A stretch of DNA of 43,496 nucleotides from assembly GCA_949283575.1 (NCBI GenBank), contig CASDSU010000028.1, positions 455,706 to 499,201 on the forward strand, given 5' to 3'. A program made the translations under genes and the position numbers. Source of the stretch: an uncultured Eubacteriales bacterium. Its GTDB lineage: Bacteria > Bacillota > Clostridia > TANB77 > UBA1234. This document shows, piece by piece, positions 23,483 to 33,653 of the stretch (its first letter is position 1; every line of letters begins with the position of its first letter). Under the pieces are notes generated by a model that searched no databases, was not told the origin of the DNA, and worked only from the letters and a program-made list of their open reading frames with translations.

Positions 23483-24019
23483 ATGAAAAAGAAAAACTAT
23501 TCAATACTTATTGCAATTGCACTTATAGCACTTTTAGTGGTAGCTATGATTTGTATGGCTGTATCGAAAAATAATAATGATGATGTAACGAACCCAAATG
23601 AAAATATAAGTGGAGATGTTATAAAATCAGGAGAAGATGTTGTTGAAAATCCTGGAACATCTGTGACACCTGCAGTTGAGCTTAATGTTGAAAGGGACTC
23701 TGAAGGAAGAAAAATAAATATTAGTGAAAAAATTAATAAAGAAAAAATGTCTTTTGAACACATTGATTTAACAGATATTTCAATTAGTTATCTTAATGGT
23801 GAAAGTACATTTTTAGCGAATGTTAAAAATAATTCAGATATTGATTATCCAGAAGGAATATATTTACTTATTAGATTTTTGAATGATGATGGAGAAGTAA
23901 TTTTTGAATTACCTGGAATGACAAGTTCTATGAAAGCAAATGGAGAAAGCAATGTAAGGACAAAAGCTACAGTTGACTTTAGTAATGCTAGCACAATAGA
24001 AGTTGATATTTTAAAATAA
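23483..24019 (+). CDS. Membrane-anchored protein with a C-terminal FxLYD-like beta domain
   Basis: The 178-residue protein has an uncleaved-looking N-terminal anchor (MKKKNYSILIAIALIALLVV) and an Asn/Pro/Glu linker to about 75. A beta-sandwich-like domain follows, with LTDISISYLNGESTFLANV, NNSDIDYPEG, IRFLNDDGEVIFELPG and GESNVRTKATV. The pattern of transport-of-residue strands and alternating hydrophobics resembles FxLYD domains of Bacillota surface proteins. No lipobox Cys is present in the expected place. The start has GAGGGGG upstream. The role is unknown, and it is followed by a bidirectional terminator. Confidence 0.7.
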   Translation: MKKKNYSILIAIALIALLVVAMICMAVSKNNNDDVTNPNENISGDVIKSGEDVVENPGTSVTPAVELNVERDSEGRKINISEKINKEKMSFEHIDLTDISISYLNGESTFLANVKNNSDIDYPEGIYLLIRFLNDDGEVIFELPGMTSSMKANGESNVRTKATVDFSNASTIEVDILK

Positions 24020-24032
24020 CAATTTGTCATAA

Positions 24033-24066
24033 AAAATGGGCACAGCTTTAAAGCTGTGCCCATTTT
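24033..24066. terminator. Bidirectional terminator between convergent genes
   Basis: AAAATGGGCACAGCTTT (24033-24049) is followed immediately by its perfect inverse (24050-24066), a 17-bp palindrome with A and T tracts on both ends. It serves the plus-strand gene ending at 24019 and the minus-strand helicase ending at 24074. Confidence 0.92.
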
Positions 24067-24073
24067 GGCGTTA

Positions 24074-26212
24074 TTATGCATGAAGGCTAGAAAAGTTCTT
24101 TGCCTTCTTAAGGTTCGGGAGAGAATTCTTGAAAAAAATTTGAATCTTATGATTGTAAAACTCCTTTGCTTGGTCGAATGTGCAGAGTTTGTCACGGTTC
24201 TGGCTGAGGACTTTTGCAAGTTTGGGATCAAGTTCCCAATCATCTTCAAAGGTCTTATTGGCCAGCCAACTTGCGAGCAAATCACGCTTTTCGCTCAAGT
24301 TGTTAATTCGTTCATCAGAGGATTCGATTTCAACGTTCCCGAAAAGTGTAACTTTGCGCAGAACGTATTCGTTTCGTTCATAGTCGTATTCTTTGCGATG
24401 TTCGACATGAACAAGCTGCGGAGCCACCTCCTTGAGAATAGAAATGTCCACCATGATAGACGAAGAAATCAGATACAGCGTCTGCTGGCTATTGTCACCT
24501 TTGTATTTCAAAGAAATATTTCGGGGCAGGCCGAGAATGTATCTGCTAGGCAGAGTTGCCGAGAAGAGATTGAGCTTGCGCTTAGAAGGATCGTTAGGGT
24601 TAGAATACCACCCATTAGATTCTCTGATGTACAAAAACTCAACCAGTCCTGCGGCACAAGCCTTCAGAATGTCGTTGCGATTACCAGTAGAGTAGATTTC
24701 GCCGTAGATATTCTCAAGAATATCATAAAGCTTGGAACGAAGCTCAAGCACTCGGAAGTAGTTACGTTCCAATACTCCCTTAAAAGGATCATCGCTATAG
24801 AGCATTCTCTGTTTTACAAGGTTGAAGCAATCAAGTTCTGCGAGAAGATCACTTTTAATTTCCTTGGAAAACATGTTGTACGAAACGTTGGATTGCTTGA
24901 TACCACCGAATTCAGAGAGAGCTGCGATTGTTACTACATCGGACAGAACTCCCAACTTGTGGGCTTCTACGATCATTCTGGCATAGCGTACCGAAAGAGG
25001 CAGCTGCGCCATGACATGGCCGATCTCAGTGATTTGATTGTTAGCATCAAAAGCACCAAGAGTGCGAAGGGTCTTCTGCGATGCCAGAATCTTCTCGAGC
25101 GGAGGCTGATGGAAGAACGTGACTGTGGTCGCATCTACGCCGATCGAGGCCAGTTTGAGAACAATCTGATTGATAGAACCCGTGTAGATGTCCGGAGTGG
25201 GATACTCTTCCAAATTCTTCAGAGGAATGTCATTGCACCAAATGTAGACGCCAGGCTTGGTACGTCCGGCTCGGCCTTTGCGCTGGATGTGGTCAGATCT
25301 ACTAATCTTACCGATAGTAAGAGTATCGAGACCTTCAACATTCTCCATATGTCGCTCGAGGCCACTGTCCACAACAGCATCAATATCAGGGATAGTGATA
25401 CTGGTCTGGGCAATGTTAGTAGCAATGATTACCTTAGGCTTATCAGTGGGCTTGAAAACAATCTGCTGCTCAGAAAGCGGCAAATCGCCATGAAGTCGAA
25501 GCATTTCTGCGTCAAGACTCATTTTTTCGAGCTCTTTGATTGTCTTTTCAATCTCGCGCTTACCAGGAACAAATGCCAAAACATTATGGCTTTTGTTTGC
25601 AAGTTCGTAAATGGAATTCACGAAATCCTTATCACGACGCTCGATTTCTGTGACATGATACTGCTTACCAGGAATCTGAAGTACAGCCGCGTTGTTGAAA
25701 AACTTGGAAGTACCTTCGATGTCCATGGTTGCAGACATCAGGATGACCTTGGTTTTCCAGCCAGAGAGAATTTTCTGATGAATCCATGCAACGAGCGTTT
25801 CGACATTGATTGTCCACTCCTGCAATTCATCAATGATGAGTACACCGTTTTCAAGGGTGTTGTTGTGATGAAGCTCTTTCATTAGTTCCAGACCCTCAGT
25901 AGTATAGAGGATTCTGGTTCGCTTAGAGAAAGCTTTATCGTATCCGGTCTGAAAACCAACAAGTTCACCAACTTCAGAGTGTAACTCGCTGGACACACGA
26001 TCACAGAGAGAAGCAGCTGCAGTTCTGGAAGGTACGGTTAGTACAACATTGCTGTAACCAGCTTCCAGTAGGTATTGAGGTACCTGGGTCGATTTGCCAG
26101 CACCAGTTTCGGCAGAAATGATGCAGACTTGGTTGTTTTTAACCATATCCAAAATCTGTTGTTTGTACTTGGTTACAGGGTAATAATTCCGTTCGACTAA
26201 GTTGTTTTCCAT
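24074..26212 (-). CDS. DEAH-type (HrpA/HrpB-like) ATP-dependent RNA helicase, probably acquired
   Basis: The 712 residues carry the superfamily 2 motifs in order: motif I SAETGAGKST (about 33-42), motif II, motif III MSATMD (159-163), motif V ATNIAQTSITIPD and motif VI QRKGRAGRTKPG, then an HA2 ratchet region. Motif II reads DELQ (128-131) where the family has DEAH. HrpA-like helicases unwind RNA and are 3' to 5' translocases. At 712 residues this is shorter than HrpA (about 1300). GC is about 45% in the lines I counted, against about 30-35% next door, which points to horizontal transfer. ATG 26212 is preferred to 26233 since AAAGGGAG lies 6-9 nt before it. Confidence 0.88.
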   Translation of the reverse strand: MENNLVERNYYPVTKYKQQILDMVKNNQVCIISAETGAGKSTQVPQYLLEAGYSNVVLTVPSRTAAASLCDRVSSELHSEVGELVGFQTGYDKAFSKRTRILYTTEGLELMKELHHNNTLENGVLIIDELQEWTINVETLVAWIHQKILSGWKTKVILMSATMDIEGTSKFFNNAAVLQIPGKQYHVTEIERRDKDFVNSIYELANKSHNVLAFVPGKREIEKTIKELEKMSLDAEMLRLHGDLPLSEQQIVFKPTDKPKVIIATNIAQTSITIPDIDAVVDSGLERHMENVEGLDTLTIGKISRSDHIQRKGRAGRTKPGVYIWCNDIPLKNLEEYPTPDIYTGSINQIVLKLASIGVDATTVTFFHQPPLEKILASQKTLRTLGAFDANNQITEIGHVMAQLPLSVRYARMIVEAHKLGVLSDVVTIAALSEFGGIKQSNVSYNMFSKEIKSDLLAELDCFNLVKQRMLYSDDPFKGVLERNYFRVLELRSKLYDILENIYGEIYSTGNRNDILKACAAGLVEFLYIRESNGWYSNPNDPSKRKLNLFSATLPSRYILGLPRNISLKYKGDNSQQTLYLISSSIMVDISILKEVAPQLVHVEHRKEYDYERNEYVLRKVTLFGNVEIESSDERINNLSEKRDLLASWLANKTFEDDWELDPKLAKVLSQNRDKLCTFDQAKEFYNHKIQIFFKNSLPNLKKAKNFSSLHA

Positions 26213-26274
26213 GTTGATCTCCCTTTCTGTCATTATATAAATGACTGTAAAAATTTAATGAAACGTCCACAAAT

Positions 26275-26303
26275 ATTGTAACATTTTTAACAGATTATGT
26301 CAA
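26275..26303 (-). promoter_or_regulatory. Promoter of the helicase gene
   Basis: On the minus strand TTGACA (26303-26298) and TACAAT (26280-26275) are spaced by 17 nt, giving a leader of about 55 nt before ATG 26212. The promoter has native AT-rich character although the gene does not. Confidence 0.8.
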
Positions 26304-26328
26304 GTTGACAAATTCTAGTTTTTGGTAA

Positions 26329-26357
26329 TTGCCAAGCCATTTTTAATGTAGTAAAAT
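26329..26357 (+). promoter_or_regulatory. Promoter of the prepilin-like gene
   Basis: TTGCCA (26329-26334) and TAAAAT (26352-26357) are spaced by 17 nt, 42 nt before ATG 26400. It diverges from the helicase promoter. Confidence 0.6.
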
Positions 26358-26399
26358 AATTGTAAGTAGGTGTATTATGATAGGAAGAGGAGTGATAAT

Positions 26400-27854
26400 A
26401 TGCGTGATTCTAAGGGTATATCAATGATTTCACTTATTGTTACTGTTATATGTATGATCTTGCTTGCTTCAATAGCAATTGGAACAGGTTCTAAATATAT
26501 AAGAGAGAGCAGAAGTAACGATAGAGCCGCTTTTGTATCTGTTATGTCAAACGCAGTAGCAAGAAGACATGCTGATACCGTTTTGAATTCAACTGCATAT
26601 CCATATCTAGGATATTACATAAATGATAGCGTAATATTTGAAAAAATATTCGTTCCAAAAGTATCTGAGCCGATAAAATATGAAAATGGAATTTGGTATG
26701 TATTAGATACTTCTACAGCTAGAGAATTAGGTGTAAAAGAACCAGAAAAATATATAGAAACGATAGACATAAGTTATCCAGAAATAGTAAAAGTTGCGTT
26801 AGTTGATTATGCAACTGGAAAAGTTTATTTAATAGATGCAAAAGCTTCAGAAATGTCAGGGTTAGATAGTATTATTTCTGGACCAGTAGTAGGACATGAC
26901 CATAGATATGTAGACGAAATAAATTATCCAAACTGTACAGAGCCATTAAAATGTGCAGATTGTGGATTTATATTGAAAGAATCATTAGGTCACAAATATG
27001 ATGCTGATAAATTACCAGAACCAGCATCTGGCGACGAAGAAAATGCCCATTATAATAGACAATGTATAGTCTGTGGAATGCAGGGTGGATATGAACCACA
27101 TGATTTTGAATATTTACATCTTGTAAAAAATGGTAATTGGCATCATAGAGCATATTGTATAATTTGTGGTTATGAAAAGAAATATGGAATAGCAACAGAA
27201 GAAAGATGTACAGAAGTAATAAAATTACCTGAATCAGATTCTGAAAGAACTAATAACCATATTCGTTCTTGTAGAGTTTGTGGACATTCTGTAAATGAAG
27301 GGCACAACATAGGATATAGAAGAATTTCGGAAAGTATGCATGAAGTATATTGTACAAATGAACTTTGTGGATATAGAATAAGAAGAGAGTATCACGTTGA
27401 TAATGACAACAACAGTAAATGTGATTTATGTAATTCAGATATAGTTTCATACTCATATCCACAGTTAGGAATCGTTGAAATGTCAAATGCGAATCCGCTT
27501 AGTGAAGAACAAAAATATGTGGCTAAGTACGGGGACAATATTTCATTAAAAATAATAGCTGATAAAGCGATAAAGAAAGAAACTCTAGATATTACAATTG
27601 CAGGACAAAAAGTTCCACAAGAGGCTTTGGTAACAACAGACAATAAAACGTGGAATATTATATTCTACTTGAATCCAAATGTAGCAATACCTAATGGAAA
27701 TATTGCATTTAGAATAACCTGTGAATCAATGTCGGGGGTTGAACTTCCAGCACCAGTGACATCACCATCAGATGGTAAGAGAGTTGTGTTTGACGGAACG
27801 GCACCATTAGTTCAATATATTCAAAAAGTAGATAGAATTGATGAAAAAGAATAA
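26400..27854 (+). CDS. Prepilin-like protein with six CxxC-type cysteine pairs
   Basis: The 484 residues begin with a short charged leader and a type IV pilin-like hydrophobic stretch (MRDSKGISMISLIVTVICMI), with G-I-S after the leader Lys but no Glu at position +5. A beta-rich part runs to about 170. A cysteine-rich central region (about 179-345) then follows, with pairs C185/C188, C222/C225, a CIIC near 253, CRVC near 291, C(4)C near 318 and CDLC near 341. The pairs are interleaved with His-rich spacers (GHDHRYVD, GHKYDADK, NWHHRAY). This looks like repeated zinc-ribbon-type modules. A last beta domain may be Ig-like. ATG 26400 has AGAGGAG upstream; the ATG 30 nt earlier lacks one. Function unknown. 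Confidence 0.75.
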   Translation: MRDSKGISMISLIVTVICMILLASIAIGTGSKYIRESRSNDRAAFVSVMSNAVARRHADTVLNSTAYPYLGYYINDSVIFEKIFVPKVSEPIKYENGIWYVLDTSTARELGVKEPEKYIETIDISYPEIVKVALVDYATGKVYLIDAKASEMSGLDSIISGPVVGHDHRYVDEINYPNCTEPLKCADCGFILKESLGHKYDADKLPEPASGDEENAHYNRQCIVCGMQGGYEPHDFEYLHLVKNGNWHHRAYCIICGYEKKYGIATEERCTEVIKLPESDSERTNNHIRSCRVCGHSVNEGHNIGYRRISESMHEVYCTNELCGYRIRREYHVDNDNNSKCDLCNSDIVSYSYPQLGIVEMSNANPLSEEQKYVAKYGDNISLKIIADKAIKKETLDITIAGQKVPQEALVTTDNKTWNIIFYLNPNVAIPNGNIAFRITCESMSGVELPAPVTSPSDGKRVVFDGTAPLVQYIQKVDRIDEKE

Positions 27855-27862
27855 AATAAAAT

Positions 27863-27897
27863 AAAAAAGATATTAGATTAAATCTAATATCTTTTTT
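27863..27897. terminator. Bidirectional terminator between convergent genes
   Basis: AAAAAAGATATTAGATT (27863-27879) is mirrored by AATCTAATATCTTTTTT (27881-27897), a 17-bp palindrome overlapping the stop codon of the minus-strand gene. Confidence 0.9.
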
Positions 27898-28894
27898 AAT
27901 GCTTCATACGAATATCTTCACCAAAAAATCTGCATATGTTAAAGTGACCAATTAATCTAGATAAGATACGAGAATCATACATTTTACTAAGCTCTTCAAG
28001 AGAAAAATTAGTAGAAATTATAGTCTTAGTATTTGGAGTAATAAGTCTTGCATTAAGAATTGTAAATATTTCTGAAAATTTAGCTGCAGTAAGATTTTCT
28101 GTTCCTAAGTCATCGATAATCAAAAGATTAACATTAAAAAGACTATTATATAAATCATTTGAAGAACTATTCGAATATTTGTTATTGTATTTATAATTAA
28201 AAATATTATCTAAAAGAAGAGGTGATGTCTGATATAAAACATTGTAGCCGTCTTTAATCACTTCATTAGCTATACAACTTGAAATATATGTTTTTCCAAT
28301 TCCTGTAGACCCAGTAAATAAAAGGTTCTTTTGATTTGGATTGTCAAAATTCTTTATAAATTCTTCAGAAATGTTCAAAATCTTTTTGACATTTTCACGA
28401 GGCGAAATATCTGATTTGTATTTTTGAGGATTAGGAACATCAGAAAATAAATTTAAATCAAGATTTGCAAAAGTTTCAGTTTTAAGACTGTGCATATTTG
28501 ATTTGTTATAAGCTTCATTTAAAAGTTCTTGTCTCATACATGAACACATTTCACTTAAGCCGTCGTTTATAATATATCCAGTGTCGTTACACTTGTGGCA
28601 AGAATATTTTGGAACTAAAGTGATATTTAATTCTTTCAAAATGTCCTCTTTAACATTTTTAAGAGAAATAATCTTAGATTGTAATTCCTCAATTTCTTTT
28701 TTTGTTTCAGCAGAAGATTGTTTTATTGAAAGTTTAGCAGTTTGAATTCCAAGTTTAGTAATTTCCCTATCTATTTCAGAAAGTTTAGGAGTAGATTCAT
28801 ATATTGCTTTTTTCTCAGAAAGAAACTGAGCATCTGCTTGATTGCGCTTTATTTCATATTGTCGTTCAATTCGCTTAATTGCTTCTGCAAACAT
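27896..28894 (-). CDS. dnaI: DnaI/DnaC-like helicase-loader ATPase
   Basis: Loaders of this type place the replicative helicase on DNA together with DnaD and DnaB. The 332 residues have an N-terminal coiled-coil region, a four-Cys zinc site (C99, C102, C117, C119) and a AAA+ domain. That domain has Walker A TGSTGIGKT (about 196-204), Walker B LLIIDDLGTE, and the arginine-bearing end ILSRLIGHFNICRFFG. Zinc site plus AAA+ domain is the DnaI layout rather than the IstB transposition type. GGAGGG lies just upstream. Its gene is 23 nt from dnaD, an arrangement usual on clostridial chromosomes. Confidence 0.88.
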   Translation of the reverse strand: MFAEAIKRIERQYEIKRNQADAQFLSEKKAIYESTPKLSEIDREITKLGIQTAKLSIKQSSAETKKEIEELQSKIISLKNVKEDILKELNITLVPKYSCHKCNDTGYIINDGLSEMCSCMRQELLNEAYNKSNMHSLKTETFANLDLNLFSDVPNPQKYKSDISPRENVKKILNISEEFIKNFDNPNQKNLLFTGSTGIGKTYISSCIANEVIKDGYNVLYQTSPLLLDNIFNYKYNNKYSNSSSNDLYNSLFNVNLLIIDDLGTENLTAAKFSEIFTILNARLITPNTKTIISTNFSLEELSKMYDSRILSRLIGHFNICRFFGEDIRMKH

Positions 28895-28917
28895 AAAAAC
28901 CCTCCTTAAAAATAAAA

Positions 28918-29895
28918 TTAATTCATGTAAAATTGACTAAAATCATTGATTTGAGTAGATTCATTAGTATTATGAAATTTCTGGATTGATGGAATACTTG
29001 AAATAGTTTGTTGTTTGAAATCTTTTTGCTTTTGTTTTTGTTCTTTCATAAAAGTTGTTATTTCTTCTTCGGTTGAAAGTTTACGTTCATGCCAATCAGA
29101 AATGATTCTGTCAATATAATCAAAGCTAGGATTAGTTTTTGAAGTAGTCTTTTTAAGAGCGATTTCTATAACATTCAAAGGATAATTAAAATCCATAACC
29201 CATTTGTCTACATAAGCTTCTTCATATTGAGATAACTTTCTAGAAAGCCCTAATTTTTTAGAAACAGTTTTCTTTATATTCATCAAATTCTCGAAGTTTG
29301 CATAATATTCATCAAGTTCATTCATATTCGTTATATTATTTTTATTCCAACCATCAGCAACAGCGAAAAGATAATTTCTGTGTAAAGCCTGTCTATCAAA
29401 ACAATACTGAAATAGGGCAATTACAACATCTTCGTCAAATTTATATTTAGAGAAAAGCATATCTATATCTGTATACCAAGTTGGTGACATAACACCTTGG
29501 AAAAACATTGCATTAATTGCACTTATAGCCTGAGTTCTTGCAACATTTTTTGCAGTGTTAGCCATAGCATCTTCTAATGATGTAGTCATTTTTGGCTTAT
29601 ATATTTTATCAACCTCTTGTTGTTTTAAGTCTGATAAAATATATGTCTTTTGTCTTTTCATTATTACATTATTTTTTTCCCAATATTTTAAACCTTGCTC
29701 AACAGTGGATAATGGGATTGATAATTTCTTTGATAAGTCTAGTGGAGATATTTCACTATTATATTTACATAAAAATAAACAGTATAAATAAATCTTGACA
29801 TATTCGCCATTAGCAGCGCCAAGATGTTCTGTTATAAATACTTCTGGTACGTTTAAATCCGAAAAAAGCATTGAAGCTTTTTGTTCAAAGTTCAT
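28918..29895 (-). CDS. dnaD: DnaD-domain primosome protein
   Basis: DnaD proteins help DnaA- or PriA-dependent helicase loading at oriC and restart sites. The 325 residues show an N-terminal winged-helix-like part (LDLSKKLSIPLSTVEQGLKYWEKNNVI). Two DnaD/DnaB C-terminal motif regions follow (PTWYTDIDMLFSKYKFDEDVVIALFQYC, and YEEAYVDKWVMDFNYPLNVIEIAL with YIDRIISDWHER). The C-terminal tail is Gln/Lys-rich. The start has a GGGGGGAG site 5-7 nt upstream and its own promoter. Downstream dnaI is the functional partner. Confidence 0.88.
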   Translation of the reverse strand: MNFEQKASMLFSDLNVPEVFITEHLGAANGEYVKIYLYCLFLCKYNSEISPLDLSKKLSIPLSTVEQGLKYWEKNNVIMKRQKTYILSDLKQQEVDKIYKPKMTTSLEDAMANTAKNVARTQAISAINAMFFQGVMSPTWYTDIDMLFSKYKFDEDVVIALFQYCFDRQALHRNYLFAVADGWNKNNITNMNELDEYYANFENLMNIKKTVSKKLGLSRKLSQYEEAYVDKWVMDFNYPLNVIEIALKKTTSKTNPSFDYIDRIISDWHERKLSTEEEITTFMKEQKQKQKDFKQQTISSIPSIQKFHNTNESTQINDFSQFYMN

Positions 29896-29918
29896 TTATA
29901 TCTCCCCCCTATGGTAGT

Positions 29919-29947
29919 AATATACCTGTTTTAGGGGCTAAAATCAA
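29919..29947 (-). promoter_or_regulatory. Promoter of dnaD-dnaI
   Basis: On the minus strand TTGATT (29947-29942) and TATATT (29924-29919) are spaced by 17 nt. Transcription would start near 29912, next to the ribosome binding site. Confidence 0.65.
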
Positions 29948-29972
29948 CTTCTTTTTTTGTTCATATTATATA

Positions 29973-30145
29973 TTTATTTTAATGATGTGCACTTGGGTGC
30001 GGAGTATTAGGGGATAGTATTTGCCGAATGGCATAGATTTTCTTCTGCAGGGGGATACAGAAAATATTTTAGGAAATTTTAAAAAATTTTTTGGGGGATA
30101 ATATATTTTTTCTCCGCACCCAACTACACACCATTAAAAAATAAA
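29973..30145. repeat. 173-bp inverted-repeat element with three GGGGATA repeats
   Basis: Arms 29973-30004 and 30112-30145 match in inverted form, with CTTGGGTGCGGAG / CTCCGCACCCAA perfect from TTGGG inwards and more than 80% identity over about 32 nt. Between them GGGGATA occurs at 30010-30016, 30051-30057 and 30094-30100 (spacings 41 and 43 nt). Small hairpins TGCC-GAAT-GGCA and TTCTG/CAGAA are also present. There is no ORF. It lies between the PrgI-like gene and dnaD. It could be a MITE-like element, an origin or transfer site, or a structured RNA. Confidence 0.8.
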
Positions 30146-30146
30146 T

Positions 30147-30446
30147 TTATTTTTTATTTTCTTTATATTCATTTATATATTTTTTTGAACAAATATAATG
30201 TTTTAAAATACATATTAAAAAATGTAATAAGGGTTCCTTATGAATAGTAGTATTTGCAAGTAAAAATAATGGTAATAATCCGAGAATAAAGATATACATA
30301 GATGTCATAATAGATACTTCTAATTTCGACAAAACAAGGGCAAAAATGAATGAAATTATACAAAATGGCAAGCAGGTCTTATATTCAAATACACCTAAAA
30401 ATTTAGGGGAATAATCATAATTAAAGGGGAAGATAAATATACGCAT
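30147..30446 (-). CDS. PrgI/VirB3-like small membrane protein
   Basis: This 99-residue protein has a short polar start (IFPFNYDYSPKFLGVFEYK) and two hydrophobic segments (about 25-43 and 48-65), ending in a basic tail. The layout matches PrgI/VirB3, which sits next to the VirB4 ATPase at the inner face of type IV secretion channels. The call also leans on position: it follows VirB2- and VirB6-like genes as in Gram-positive conjugation operons. GAAAGGAT lies upstream of the ATG. The next gene in such operons should be virB4, but an inverted-repeat element begins right at its stop. Confidence 0.6.
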   Translation of the reverse strand: MRIFIFPFNYDYSPKFLGVFEYKTCLPFCIISFIFALVLSKLEVSIMTSMYIFILGLLPLFLLANTTIHKEPLLHFLICILKHYICSKKYINEYKENKK

Positions 30447-30459
30447 TTTGATATCCTTT

Positions 30460-31356
30460 CTATTTTGAAATCATGGAACGAATTCCTGCTAGACCTGTTT
30501 GAAAATTAGTTCCAATTCCCAGACCACCCATGAATTCTTTTACAAATTGATTTGATTTCAAAAGAGCAGTTATAGAGCCAACAAGAAGAATTTTATTAAA
30601 AAGAGAATTGTTGTTTTCGCGAATTAGAGCGTAAGGGATTAAAAGCATTACTGAAATAACAATTTGAAGAATTAGTAGTGAAAGAAGACATTTAAACCAG
30701 CTTTTAAAAAAACTTTCAGTTGAACTTGTTGACAGACATAGGATTGCAAAGGGGGATAATATCATCAATACTTCTACTAGAATATATCTAAATGCAAAAC
30801 TTATTATCAAGGCAAATGATGAGATAGAAAGCATTCCACTTAGGATACCATCAAGAGAAAAAATATCAAAAGAATTTGAAACGGAATTGTTTAAAAGTGA
30901 AATAAGTGTCTCAAAAGATATGTCTTTTCCGAAAATATTTTTTCCTAATTCACAAAAGAATGAACTTATAAGGTTGGTAGCAGAAATCAAAAATTTACAA
31001 ATAGACAGTGAATAATTCATTGTAATGCCTGCAAGAAAGGCCCTCATAAAGAATTTTGGTGGGGACTCTGTTTGTGTAGCAGTAAGATTTGCAATTAGAG
31101 ATCTGGCAGCATAATAAAGAACAAATGCAGTAAACAAACAATTAGCAAGAAGTAAAACGCCACTTGTAGGAGAATTACTAAAAAGTTTGTTCATTTTGTC
31201 TCCGGTCGAGAAAATATTCTTATCAATAAATACTAATTCATCTAAAAGTGGGAAAATATTTGAATCTATTGAGGAAAATAGGTTTGAACATAAAGTGTTA
31301 ATTATTTCAATTACTATTGATACAATATTTACACTGTTTGAAATTGAATCGTTCAT
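30460..31356 (-). CDS. TrbL/VirB6-like polytopic membrane protein
   Basis: The 298 residues contain about six hydrophobic segments after an N-terminal amphipathic region. The diagnostic central stretch YILVEVLMILSPFAILCLS, followed by the ESFFKSWFKCLL turn and another membrane helix, is typical of TrbL/VirB6 proteins (including CD1107-type proteins of clostridial elements) that form the channel base. The C-terminus has a Gly-rich end (FMGGLGIGTN). It lies 13 nt from the PrgI-like gene and 8 nt from the pilin-like gene, so all are translated from one message. Confidence 0.78.
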   Translation of the reverse strand: MNDSISNSVNIVSIVIEIINTLCSNLFSSIDSNIFPLLDELVFIDKNIFSTGDKMNKLFSNSPTSGVLLLANCLFTAFVLYYAARSLIANLTATQTESPPKFFMRAFLAGITMNYSLSICKFLISATNLISSFFCELGKNIFGKDISFETLISLLNNSVSNSFDIFSLDGILSGMLSISSFALIISFAFRYILVEVLMILSPFAILCLSTSSTESFFKSWFKCLLSLLILQIVISVMLLIPYALIRENNNSLFNKILLVGSITALLKSNQFVKEFMGGLGIGTNFQTGLAGIRSMISK

Positions 31357-31364
31357 GATAGCTC

Positions 31365-31691
31365 CTATCCAAATAGCGATTGAAGTGCTGAAATTACAGG
31401 ATCTATTAGCAGTATGAATGTATATGAAAAAATGGTACTCCTAATTAGTTTTTTGCCTGTTGCAATTTTTTCTTCATCACCAAAACTGAATTTTTTCATG
31501 AGTAATCCACTACCAATAGCTACTGCCGCAGCTGGTGTAGCTATCTTAACAATCCAGCTTTGAATTTCAGAAAGAGCAGCTGCTATTTTTGATGTTAAAT
31601 CATTTCCAGAAAAAAGTCCGGCATATGAAATACTTGTAAAAGATAAAACTAGTAGTGTTATCAACGTTAATGCTATAAATTTTTTCTTCAT
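31365..31691 (-). CDS. VirB2/TrbC-like pilin subunit
   Basis: The 108-residue protein has a clear signal peptide (MKKKFIALTLITLLVLSF, cleavage likely after SYA) and two hydrophobic helices. These are separated by a short charged loop (KKFSFGDEEKIATGKKLI), the standard VirB2/TrbC/Maff2 layout. Small residues dominate the first helix (ATPAAAVAIGSGLL). In Gram-positive systems such proteins form or line the conjugation channel. GGAGAT precedes the ATG. It is the second gene after the VirD4-like ATPase in this operon. Confidence 0.78.
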   Translation of the reverse strand: MKKKFIALTLITLLVLSFTSISYAGLFSGNDLTSKIAAALSEIQSWIVKIATPAAAVAIGSGLLMKKFSFGDEEKIATGKKLIRSTIFSYTFILLIDPVISALQSLFG

Positions 31692-31707
31692 AGTTAATCT
31701 CCTTGTT

Positions 31708-33390
31708 TTAAATAAAATGTTTTTGATGCGAAGGTAAAAGCTTCACTACGCATGGATTTAATATTTCGTGTCCAGTTGTAATAAAACATATTGCCTCAAA
31801 TGTTTTTAGTTTCATTGAGAAAGCGTTAATGTCATATACAAAATCATGTTCAATATGAGTGCTGATACTTTCGGAAATATTAGAATTTTCTGATTTGAAA
31901 GTTTTCAAAATATAATTATATTTTGTTTCTTTAGCGTTTTCGGATAAACTCCTAGAAAACTTGACTTTATCCTCCTTTCCAAGTTGCTTTTGCGCTTCTT
32001 CAATTGTAAATAAATCGTCAGTTCGAAACCAAATTTTGTTCACGAGACTTTGTATAATTACTTTAGCTGCAGCCTGTTCTTTAACTGCATTTAAAAGTGA
32101 TGTATAACTTTGAGTTGAAACAATATTTATACATTTAGCCTCTCTGCTTTCAGAAAAAAAGTTAGCATCATTTTCTGTGACATATTCAGAATATTCATCG
32201 CACACAAAAGCAACTGGAGAAATATTTGTTTTTTTTGCTAATCTCATTAGTACTTCTGATTGAAAATCAAGTTTTAAATAAGCTGCGATTATCTTAGAAA
32301 GATTTCTGTACTCAGAAACATTCATATTTAAAACTACAATATTATTTTTTAAATTCTCAAAACCACTAAAGGTAACATTCTCTTTGTTTGGACAGAATGT
32401 TCGTTTGACATCTAAGTCATTAATAAAAATTTGTGTTATTCGGGAAATTTCAGATTGAATTATAGATAAAACTTTTGAATCCAAGGTTTGAAACTCAGAT
32501 TGGAAGAAATCTAAACATGTACTGAGCTCATATACTTGAGAATAATTTAGTTTATTTGATAAAAATAGATCTTTCACAAACTCAATTTTCTCTGATAAAT
32601 ATTTTTTATTGTAAATTAATTTGTGAAGTTCAACAAAAGTAACATATCCGTCGTTATAAATACGGCATAATTTAATGCATTCTGTAAGATACAATTCTAC
32701 TTTGTCAAGCCAATATGTATCGGTAGCATTTGTGTTTGAGAATAAAGAAAGAATAGTTCTAAGTCGATTAGCAATTATAGATGGTTTTAAATTAGGTTTG
32801 TCTAAGGGATTATAAGTTTCAGTTCCATTAAGCTCAATAACTGTAACTTTTCGATTATATTTCTTAGCAAGTTCTTTTACTTTTAGGTGAAAATTACCTT
32901 TTACATCTAAGATTAACATACCTATGTTTTGAGATATCAACTGTTCTACGAAAGGATACATTGCAGAAGATGTTTTTCCAGTACCAATAGTTCCAGTAAT
33001 TAGAACGTTTTGATATAAACCTCTTTCTGGAATTATAATTTGTTCATTATTTTCTTCGTTTATTCCGACAAATAGAGAAAGTTCATTTGCAAATTGTTTT
33101 TTATTATCAATAGTGTTAACTTGTGTGGAAATATCGGAATTTTCTAATGGGAATTTTTTGAATAAATTATATAAAATTGTGCACCAGGAAAGTGAAACAG
33201 TGAAGATATAAAAGATTTTAAGATTATTCCAAAGCCATGTTTCAATAGTGTATTCTTTTTCGAAAATATTATAAGTAAAAGTTTGGGTTTTGAATAATGG
33301 ATAAAAAATGATTAGATTAAAAATGATTATGATTAATACACTTATTGAAATATGAAGGAAATTAGTGTATAATGACCTTGTTTTCGAGAT
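31708..33390 (-). CDS. Second VirD4/TraG-type ATPase, without a canonical start codon
   Basis: The frame is open from 33396 down to TAA 31708. It encodes two membrane segments (about 12-30 and 58-76), Walker A GTIGTGKT (133-140), a LILDVKGNF strand and a Walker B region AFVCDEYSEY (about 395-403). These fit a coupling ATPase of about 560 residues. The first ATG lies after Walker A, so it cannot be the start. There is no ATG, GTG or TTG upstream. AGGAG (33405-33401) is 10 nt before ATC TCG AAA at 33390, which would be an ideal start if ATC were ATG. Upstream TGA 33399-33397 separates it, in frame, from a small membrane ORF. Non-standard start, recoding, mutation or error are all open. Coordinates assume ATC. 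Confidence 0.75.
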   Translation of the reverse strand: MSKTRSLYTNFLHISISVLIIIIFNLIIFYPLFKTQTFTYNIFEKEYTIETWLWNNLKIFYIFTVSLSWCTILYNLFKKFPLENSDISTQVNTIDNKKQFANELSLFVGINEENNEQIIIPERGLYQNVLITGTIGTGKTSSAMYPFVEQLISQNIGMLILDVKGNFHLKVKELAKKYNRKVTVIELNGTETYNPLDKPNLKPSIIANRLRTILSLFSNTNATDTYWLDKVELYLTECIKLCRIYNDGYVTFVELHKLIYNKKYLSEKIEFVKDLFLSNKLNYSQVYELSTCLDFFQSEFQTLDSKVLSIIQSEISRITQIFINDLDVKRTFCPNKENVTFSGFENLKNNIVVLNMNVSEYRNLSKIIAAYLKLDFQSEVLMRLAKKTNISPVAFVCDEYSEYVTENDANFFSESREAKCINIVSTQSYTSLLNAVKEQAAAKVIIQSLVNKIWFRTDDLFTIEEAQKQLGKEDKVKFSRSLSENAKETKYNYILKTFKSENSNISESISTHIEHDFVYDINAFSMKLKTFEAICFITTGHEILNPCVVKLLPSHQKHFI

Positions 33391-33396
33391 AAAAAA

Positions 33397-33630
33397 TCAA
33401 CTCCTATCAGATGAAAGTTTTGATTTACTTAAATCTAGTTTAGAACCTTGTTTTTCATGGAATACATTTATTTCTAAGAATGAAGATGTAATATAAACTA
33501 ATACTAATGAGTGAATTAAAAAAGAATAAAAGTAAATAGTGAATAATTTGTCATCTGTTAAGAAATAAAAAATTATCGAAATAAAAAATAAGATAGAAAC
33601 TAATTGAAGGTAAAATTTTGAAACTTTCAA
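33397..33630 (-). CDS. Small two-helix membrane protein upstream of the VirD4-like ATPase
   Basis: This protein of about 77 residues has two hydrophobic segments (LQLVSILFFISIIFYFL and YFYSFLIHSLVLVYITSSFL) and a polar tail (KQGSKLDLSKSKLSSDRS). TTG 33630 is preferred, 8 nt after AAAGGTGG, over the GTG codons at 33642 and 33639, which touch it. It ends in TGA and is in the same frame as the ATPase that follows, so it may be the N-terminus of one larger protein. As a separate protein it would be the first gene of the secretion-like operon. I do not recognise a family. Confidence 0.55.
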   Translation of the reverse strand: MKVSKFYLQLVSILFFISIIFYFLTDDKLFTIYFYSFLIHSLVLVYITSSFLEINVFHEKQGSKLDLSKSKLSSDRS

Positions 33631-33653
33631 GATGCTCACCACCTTTAGTCGGA

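Follow-up and report, generated by a model that had tools for sequence, protein, structure and literature searches.

The minus-strand gene row between positions 33642 and 27896 of the analysed window (the whole stretch of 43,496 nucleotides from an uncultured Eubacteriales bacterium) very probably encodes part of a chromosomally fixed, relaxase-free, MPF_FATA-like type IV secretion system (T4SS), inherited mainly vertically within one order of Clostridia and distributed over two conserved loci. Locus 1 would comprise a small transmembrane protein, a VirD4 coupling ATPase (T4CP), a VirB2 pilin, VirB6 and VirB3, followed by dnaD-dnaI. Locus 2 would comprise a split VirB4 (a TrsD-like protein plus the ATPase, here VirB4-A) and a MinD/CpaE-like protein, accompanied in some families by VirB11/TadA-like and GspF-like proteins. 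The location of the VirB4 motor in a second operon points to a long-conserved cell function rather than to a dying mobile element.

In the ORF layout of the window, five membrane or motor genes are followed by a hairpin and dnaD-dnaI. The first gene encodes a small two-helix membrane protein (33397..33642, minus strand, as are all cassette genes), to which profile searches assigned no family and which precedes the T4CP in 76 of the 80 best loci of a GTDB contig scan. The VirD4-like T4CP (31708..33390) has two N-terminal transmembrane helices, a Walker A motif (GTIGTGKT) and a Walker B motif (FVCDEY). It combines the P-loop and the TraG-D_C domain of a VirD4-type coupling protein, matches PF10412 (E 1.9e-9) and PF12696 (E 1.2e-5) above cut-off, and its predicted model resembles the folds of two coupling proteins, Cagbeta (8dol, E 1.6e-13) and TrwB. 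The VirB2-like pilin of 108 aa (31365..31691), supported by an alignment of its orthologues, likewise passes the cut-off (PF18895, T4SS_pilin, E 3.9e-6). For the VirB6/TrbL-like polytopic membrane protein (30460..31356), the window's own protein reached only E 0.1; PF04610 was matched by 6 of 15 orthologues (best 8e-7), the orthologues could be aligned, and the best fold matches of the predicted model, to R388 TrwI/VirB6, were weak (TM 0.3-0.4). The PrgI/VirB3-like membrane protein (30147..30446) itself matches PF12666 below cut-off (E 0.01), with 6 of 15 orthologues matching PF12666 and one matching VirB3. Orthologues and predicted fold thus identify VirB6 and VirB3/PrgI at the level of protein families, the window's own matches being below cut-off. 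The order VirD4-like, VirB2-like, VirB6/TrbL-like, PrgI-like proposed in the initial annotation was borne out by layout and profile searches. The same order, VirD4-pilin-like-VirB6-PrgI, characterizes Tn1549/CTn-type conjugative transposons of Firmicutes; in contrast to these elements, the present locus contains no relaxase or cell-wall hydrolase, its virB4 is displaced, and it is fixed in an order.

Called from ATG (32961), the T4CP ORF begins past Walker A, while the true frame extends to approximately 33390. No ATG, GTG or TTG occurs in this frame of the window upstream of Walker A, so that simple ORF calling places the start too far downstream and a rare start codon is required, most likely ATC at 33390-33388 as judged from the sequence. 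When, for each orthologue, the start was placed at whichever in-frame start-like codon had the best Shine-Dalgarno match, the T4CP started at ATA, ATT or ATC in 72 of 101 distinct orthologues with a clear Shine-Dalgarno sequence (dnaD, 7 of 83; pilin, 15 of 97). Near-cognate start codons are known from infC. An AUA, AUU or AUC start probably keeps T4CP synthesis low, translation being weak or regulated.

The inverted repeat reported at the end of the row is real: a long hairpin with 28-nt arms (29977-30004 and 30112-30139; fold z -7.3) fills 29977..30139 of the minus strand in the gap between prgI and dnaD. An Rfam family or a repeat was rejected as its identity, since no family scored over threshold and the hairpin is present in single copy. 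It is common to two sister species (G005 and G003), and a third (G002) likely carries a diverged version whose arms have changed yet still pair. The CCCCC motifs of the hairpin could pair with the GGGGGGAG ribosome site of dnaD. Next in the row are the replication initiation gene dnaD (28918..29895; PF07261, DnaB_2, E 1.4e-26) and a dnaI-like helicase loader gene (27896..28894; NF005304, E 4e-97), both on the minus strand. The order PrgI>DnaD>DnaI is kept in 67 of the 80 GTDB loci; the proposed joining to primosome genes therefore stands as gene order, but nothing shows a functional link.

The cassette is retained across the order. Within a set of 57 relatives, the T4CP turned up in four families, and those genomes also keep the gene order. 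Of 288 sampled genomes from the order, each at least 90% complete, 221 carry the T4CP, and these represent 40 of 45 genera. T4CP>pilin>VirB6>PrgI is the gene order at 76 of the 80 top-ranking GTDB loci, and at none of the 80 does VirB4 lie between PrgI and DnaD. These counts overlap partly via two collections (119 distinct of 137 T4CPs), and all genomes are, or were treated as, metagenome-assembled genomes (MAGs), for which absence calls hinge on completeness and cut-offs. In a sample of the class (391 genomes), T4CP matches at 1e-30 were confined to this order and to two genomes carrying the T4CP in mobile elements. Median dN/dS values of 0.21-0.27 lie far below 1 for every gene, and closest species gave 0.09-0.13 for pilin, VirB6 and PrgI, indicating purifying selection; together with the kept order, this agrees with the earlier view that the row is not random debris. 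Pairwise distances of the T4CP track those of VirB6 (r = 0.94), VirB4-A (0.93, n = 16), DnaD (0.86), pilin and PrgI, with a correlation of only 0.53 for gyrA. The distribution is not the patchy one of a mobile unit: the cassette is order-wide, has the same neighbours and is flanked by housekeeping genes. A relaxase encoded together with the T4SS, as in an integrative conjugative element (ICE), was not found in a search covering one family, MOB_P, which was never detected at the cassette locus, as initially annotated, and occurred elsewhere in 20 of the 57 relatives, sporadically. Neither VirB8 nor a VirB1-type cell-wall hydrolase was seen at the cassette or in the VirB4-A operon.

The window's own genome encodes three VirB4 homologues. 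Split VirB4-A (G000:C28:284286-286109), approximately 200 kb from the cassette, supplies in trans the VirB4 of an MPF_FATA-like T4SS, with E 2e-81 to NF045971 and a TrsD-like N-terminal part: the upstream 200-aa TrsD-type gene aligns to the CD1110 VirB4 model over positions 1-168 and the ATPase gene over positions 191-732, and in one relative (G001) both parts are fused in a single 764-aa frame. The description of the row as lacking VirB4 is thus correct for the locus and wrong for the genome, and the picture of a stripped-down system with one ATPase, or of a minimal T4SS in a genome devoid of VirB4, fails here. VirB4-A was detected in 222 of the 288 genomes of the order (43 of 45 genera). Its operon also carries a MinD/CpaE-like ATPase, and in families f1, f4 and part of f5 it adds a GspF-like protein and a VirB11/TadA-like ATPase (TIGR02788, E 3e-42, below the model's cut-off), often with gyrA next. 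In many relatives the operon and the T4CP locus converge, separated by no more than gyrA and a few genes, in the arrangement TrsD-VirB4A-MinD..gyrA> <dnaI-dnaD-prgI-virB6-pilin-T4CP (G025, G028, G048, G052, G036, G038, G014, G007 and others). In another locus (L185) TrsD-VirB4A immediately precedes the cassette in the same orientation, and in family f2 TrsD-VirB4A is directly preceded by a PrgI homologue of the same family as the cassette PrgI, making PrgI-TrsD-VirB4A contiguous. On the plus strand of the window, the region 23483-27854 contains prepilin-like and Cys/His-rich genes (23483-24019, 26370-27854); relatives of these lie beside VirB4-A in G007 (L119), indicating that pilus-type genes move from one neighbourhood to the other.

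The order has a further conserved locus that resembles a T4SS (G000:C28:186000-205999, L136; also L137-L149 and L155). It encodes 2-4 tandem VirB2/TrbC pilins, PrgI, a TrsD-like protein, a second VirB4 (VirB4-B, 662 aa, G000:C28:196136) and large surface proteins, in some relatives also NlpC/P60 and M15 hydrolases, and bears likeness to the pilin array of Patescibacteria. A TraG-D_C membrane protein of 840-880 aa is a lone conserved gene across the order (G000:C36:24336-26735, L076, L077, L086, L088, L089). It was rejected as the T4CP of the cassette, being a separate conserved family with no adjoining pilin or VirB6 in the fetched loci; perhaps it is the coupling protein of the L136-type system.

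Apparent frameshifts in the T4CP, VirB6, VirB4-A and dnaI genes of relatives coincide with in-frame CGG codons. A screen covering every split gene of the fetched loci gave 66 well-supported junctions, of which 64 are +1 shifts at CGG; the remaining two are net +2 and also contain CGG, L226 having a second CGG in the new frame. The screen required three references, which removes false junctions arising from a TRBL+PrgI fusion in L166. If the C of CGG is skipped, 49 of 52 distinct junctions align again without gaps, mostly with glycine (40 of 49). Such junctions were located in the T4CP of L037, L053, L158, L203 and L226, in VirB6 of L171, L174, L179, L188 and L232, and in dnaI of 24 loci (e.g. 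L057:3584-4186), here often in Walker A (GGT TTA CGG TAA GAC); they were also seen in many other genes. Elsewhere CGG is nearly absent: 918 conserved frames, with 346,133 codons in total, contain it 19 times. The tRNA set of the window's own genome, which is incomplete, includes the Arg anticodons ACG, CCT and TCT, but a CCG anticodon was not detected. Two tRNA genes of this genome have odd anticodon loops (L309:1501-1578, G000:C13:28001; L317:284-356, G000:C36:91983), one with an 8-nt loop (CUCACCCC) and one called with a two-base anticodon. CGG thus seems to behave as a genome-wide +1 frameshift site across the order, and breaks at such sites must not be counted as decay. CGG is known as an unassigned codon in M. 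capricolum and also in lineages described in PMC8629427; a limited literature search yielded no description of +1 shifting at CGG on a genome-wide scale.

Does the cassette represent a decaying conjugative element, i.e. what remains of an ICE after the loss of its other parts, as the initial annotation considered? A conjugative ancestry is clear, given that VirB4-A matches ICE ATPases of the CD1110 type, its closest family, and the closest T4CPs outside the order reside in mobile elements; apparent frameshifts in G005 and G001 would also fit decay. However, these breaks fall at CGG, where +1 shifting seems normal in the order, and retention at the same place order-wide under purifying selection contradicts a remnant, which we regard as very improbable. 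The presence of virB4 and relaxase genes directly beyond the locus in relatives had been named as the sign of a dying element: virB4 does lie just across gyrA in many of them, so that "minimal" no longer applies, but the same stretch yielded no relaxase, and the genes themselves are being maintained. The alternative of domestication is supported by the order-wide, chromosomal, relaxase-free locus and the purifying selection acting on it.

A further question is which ATPase drives the domesticated system. Of the 288 genomes, 187 have both T4CP and VirB4-A, 34 the T4CP alone, 35 VirB4-A alone and 32 neither (odds ratio 5, p 2e-7, phylogeny ignored), the VirB4-A cut-off of 1e-90 causing some false absences, e.g. 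of a diverged VirB4-A in G016, and MAG gaps adding others. The 34 cassettes without detected VirB4-A and the 35 reverse cases indicate that neither locus strictly requires the other. The VirD4-like ATPase might therefore drive the cassette alone, with VirB4-A belonging to another machine: even a looser search detected no VirB4-A in G022, G032, G054 and G056, whose cassettes are intact; 20 further loci lacking it all keep a long T4CP ORF and the pilin, with the other genes intact as far as contigs reach and dN/dS similar to the rest; and VirB4-A changes state at least 10 times on the T4CP tree. As a general account this is nonetheless unlikely, because T4CP and VirB4-A share a conserved neighbourhood, co-occur and have correlated distances, because PrgI adjoins TrsD-VirB4A in f2, and because VirB4-B, found in nearly every genome tested, could serve instead. 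VirB4-B is a less likely cassette partner, since it belongs to a separate system that has pilins and a PrgI of its own, though it could substitute where VirB4-A was lost. Of the T4CP-lacking genomes tested, 35 have VirB4-A, and 21 of these keep VirB6, indicating that the T4CP is dispensable in places; among the 15 that lack both ATPases, VirB6 was found in 1 (p 5e-4, phylogeny ignored). The intact cassettes of VirB4-A-lacking species make a one-ATPase channel possible in some species, not the general case. We consider it unlikely as well, if slightly less so, that interchangeable one-ATPase versions exist, in which a VirB2-VirB6-VirB3 channel works with the VirD4-like ATPase alone or, in sister lineages, with VirB4-A without VirD4.

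For the preferred two-locus T4SS, we propose that VirB2, VirB3 and VirB6 would form a membrane channel or pilus base, assembled by VirB4-A, into which the VirD4-like T4CP would feed a substrate other than a relaxase-bound conjugative strand. In the simplest history, one ICE-like operon would have been captured, then split where prgI meets virB4, and its parts scattered. Protein export to neighbours has roughly even chances of being the function, somewhat better than those of chromosomal DNA release or exchange, or of adhesion only, the last being improbable. Within the same anatomy, DNA uptake, release or exchange resembling that of the archaeal Ced and Ted systems is a tentative reading that may apply: the same minimal set (VirB2, VirB6, VirB4, ParA/MinD-like) is fixed there on chromosomes without relaxase, Ted loci carry MinD/ParA, Ced was shown to import DNA (PMC9905601), and the cassette has dnaD, dnaI and gyrA as neighbours. 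On the other hand, these neighbours may be accidental, and no VirD4 belongs to Ced or Ted loci as described. Chromosomal domestication and the absence of relaxase are shared with these archaeal systems. Also close in composition are the chromosomal, MPF_FATA-like T4SSs of monoderm Patescibacteria (PMC12102498), in which the relaxase is mostly absent and the T4CP often lies away from virB4, and which share TrsD plus VirB4, PrgI/VirB3, VirB6, VirB2 pilins and a position near replication genes. In contrast to that other phylum, T4CP, pilin, VirB6 and PrgI here form one conserved cassette, with VirB4 apart in the company of MinD/CpaE, VirB11/TadA and GspF-like genes.

VirB2 and VirB11-like proteins are unusual in a Gram-positive system (reviewed in PMC12857230), and a limited search of the open literature found no paper on a T4SS of this order. 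The +1 shifting at CGG, which leads gene-calling programs to split or shorten genes of this order, and the conserved AUA/AUU/AUC start codon are by-products of wider relevance. Because lineages have naturally lost one ATPase or the other, comparing them could show how VirB4 and VirD4 share the work. A gut Clostridia order with a fixed, relaxase-free, VirB2-bearing T4SS, in part with a VirB11/TadA-like protein in the VirB4 operon, suggests an unrecognised route by which gut commensals may deliver something to neighbours or to the host.
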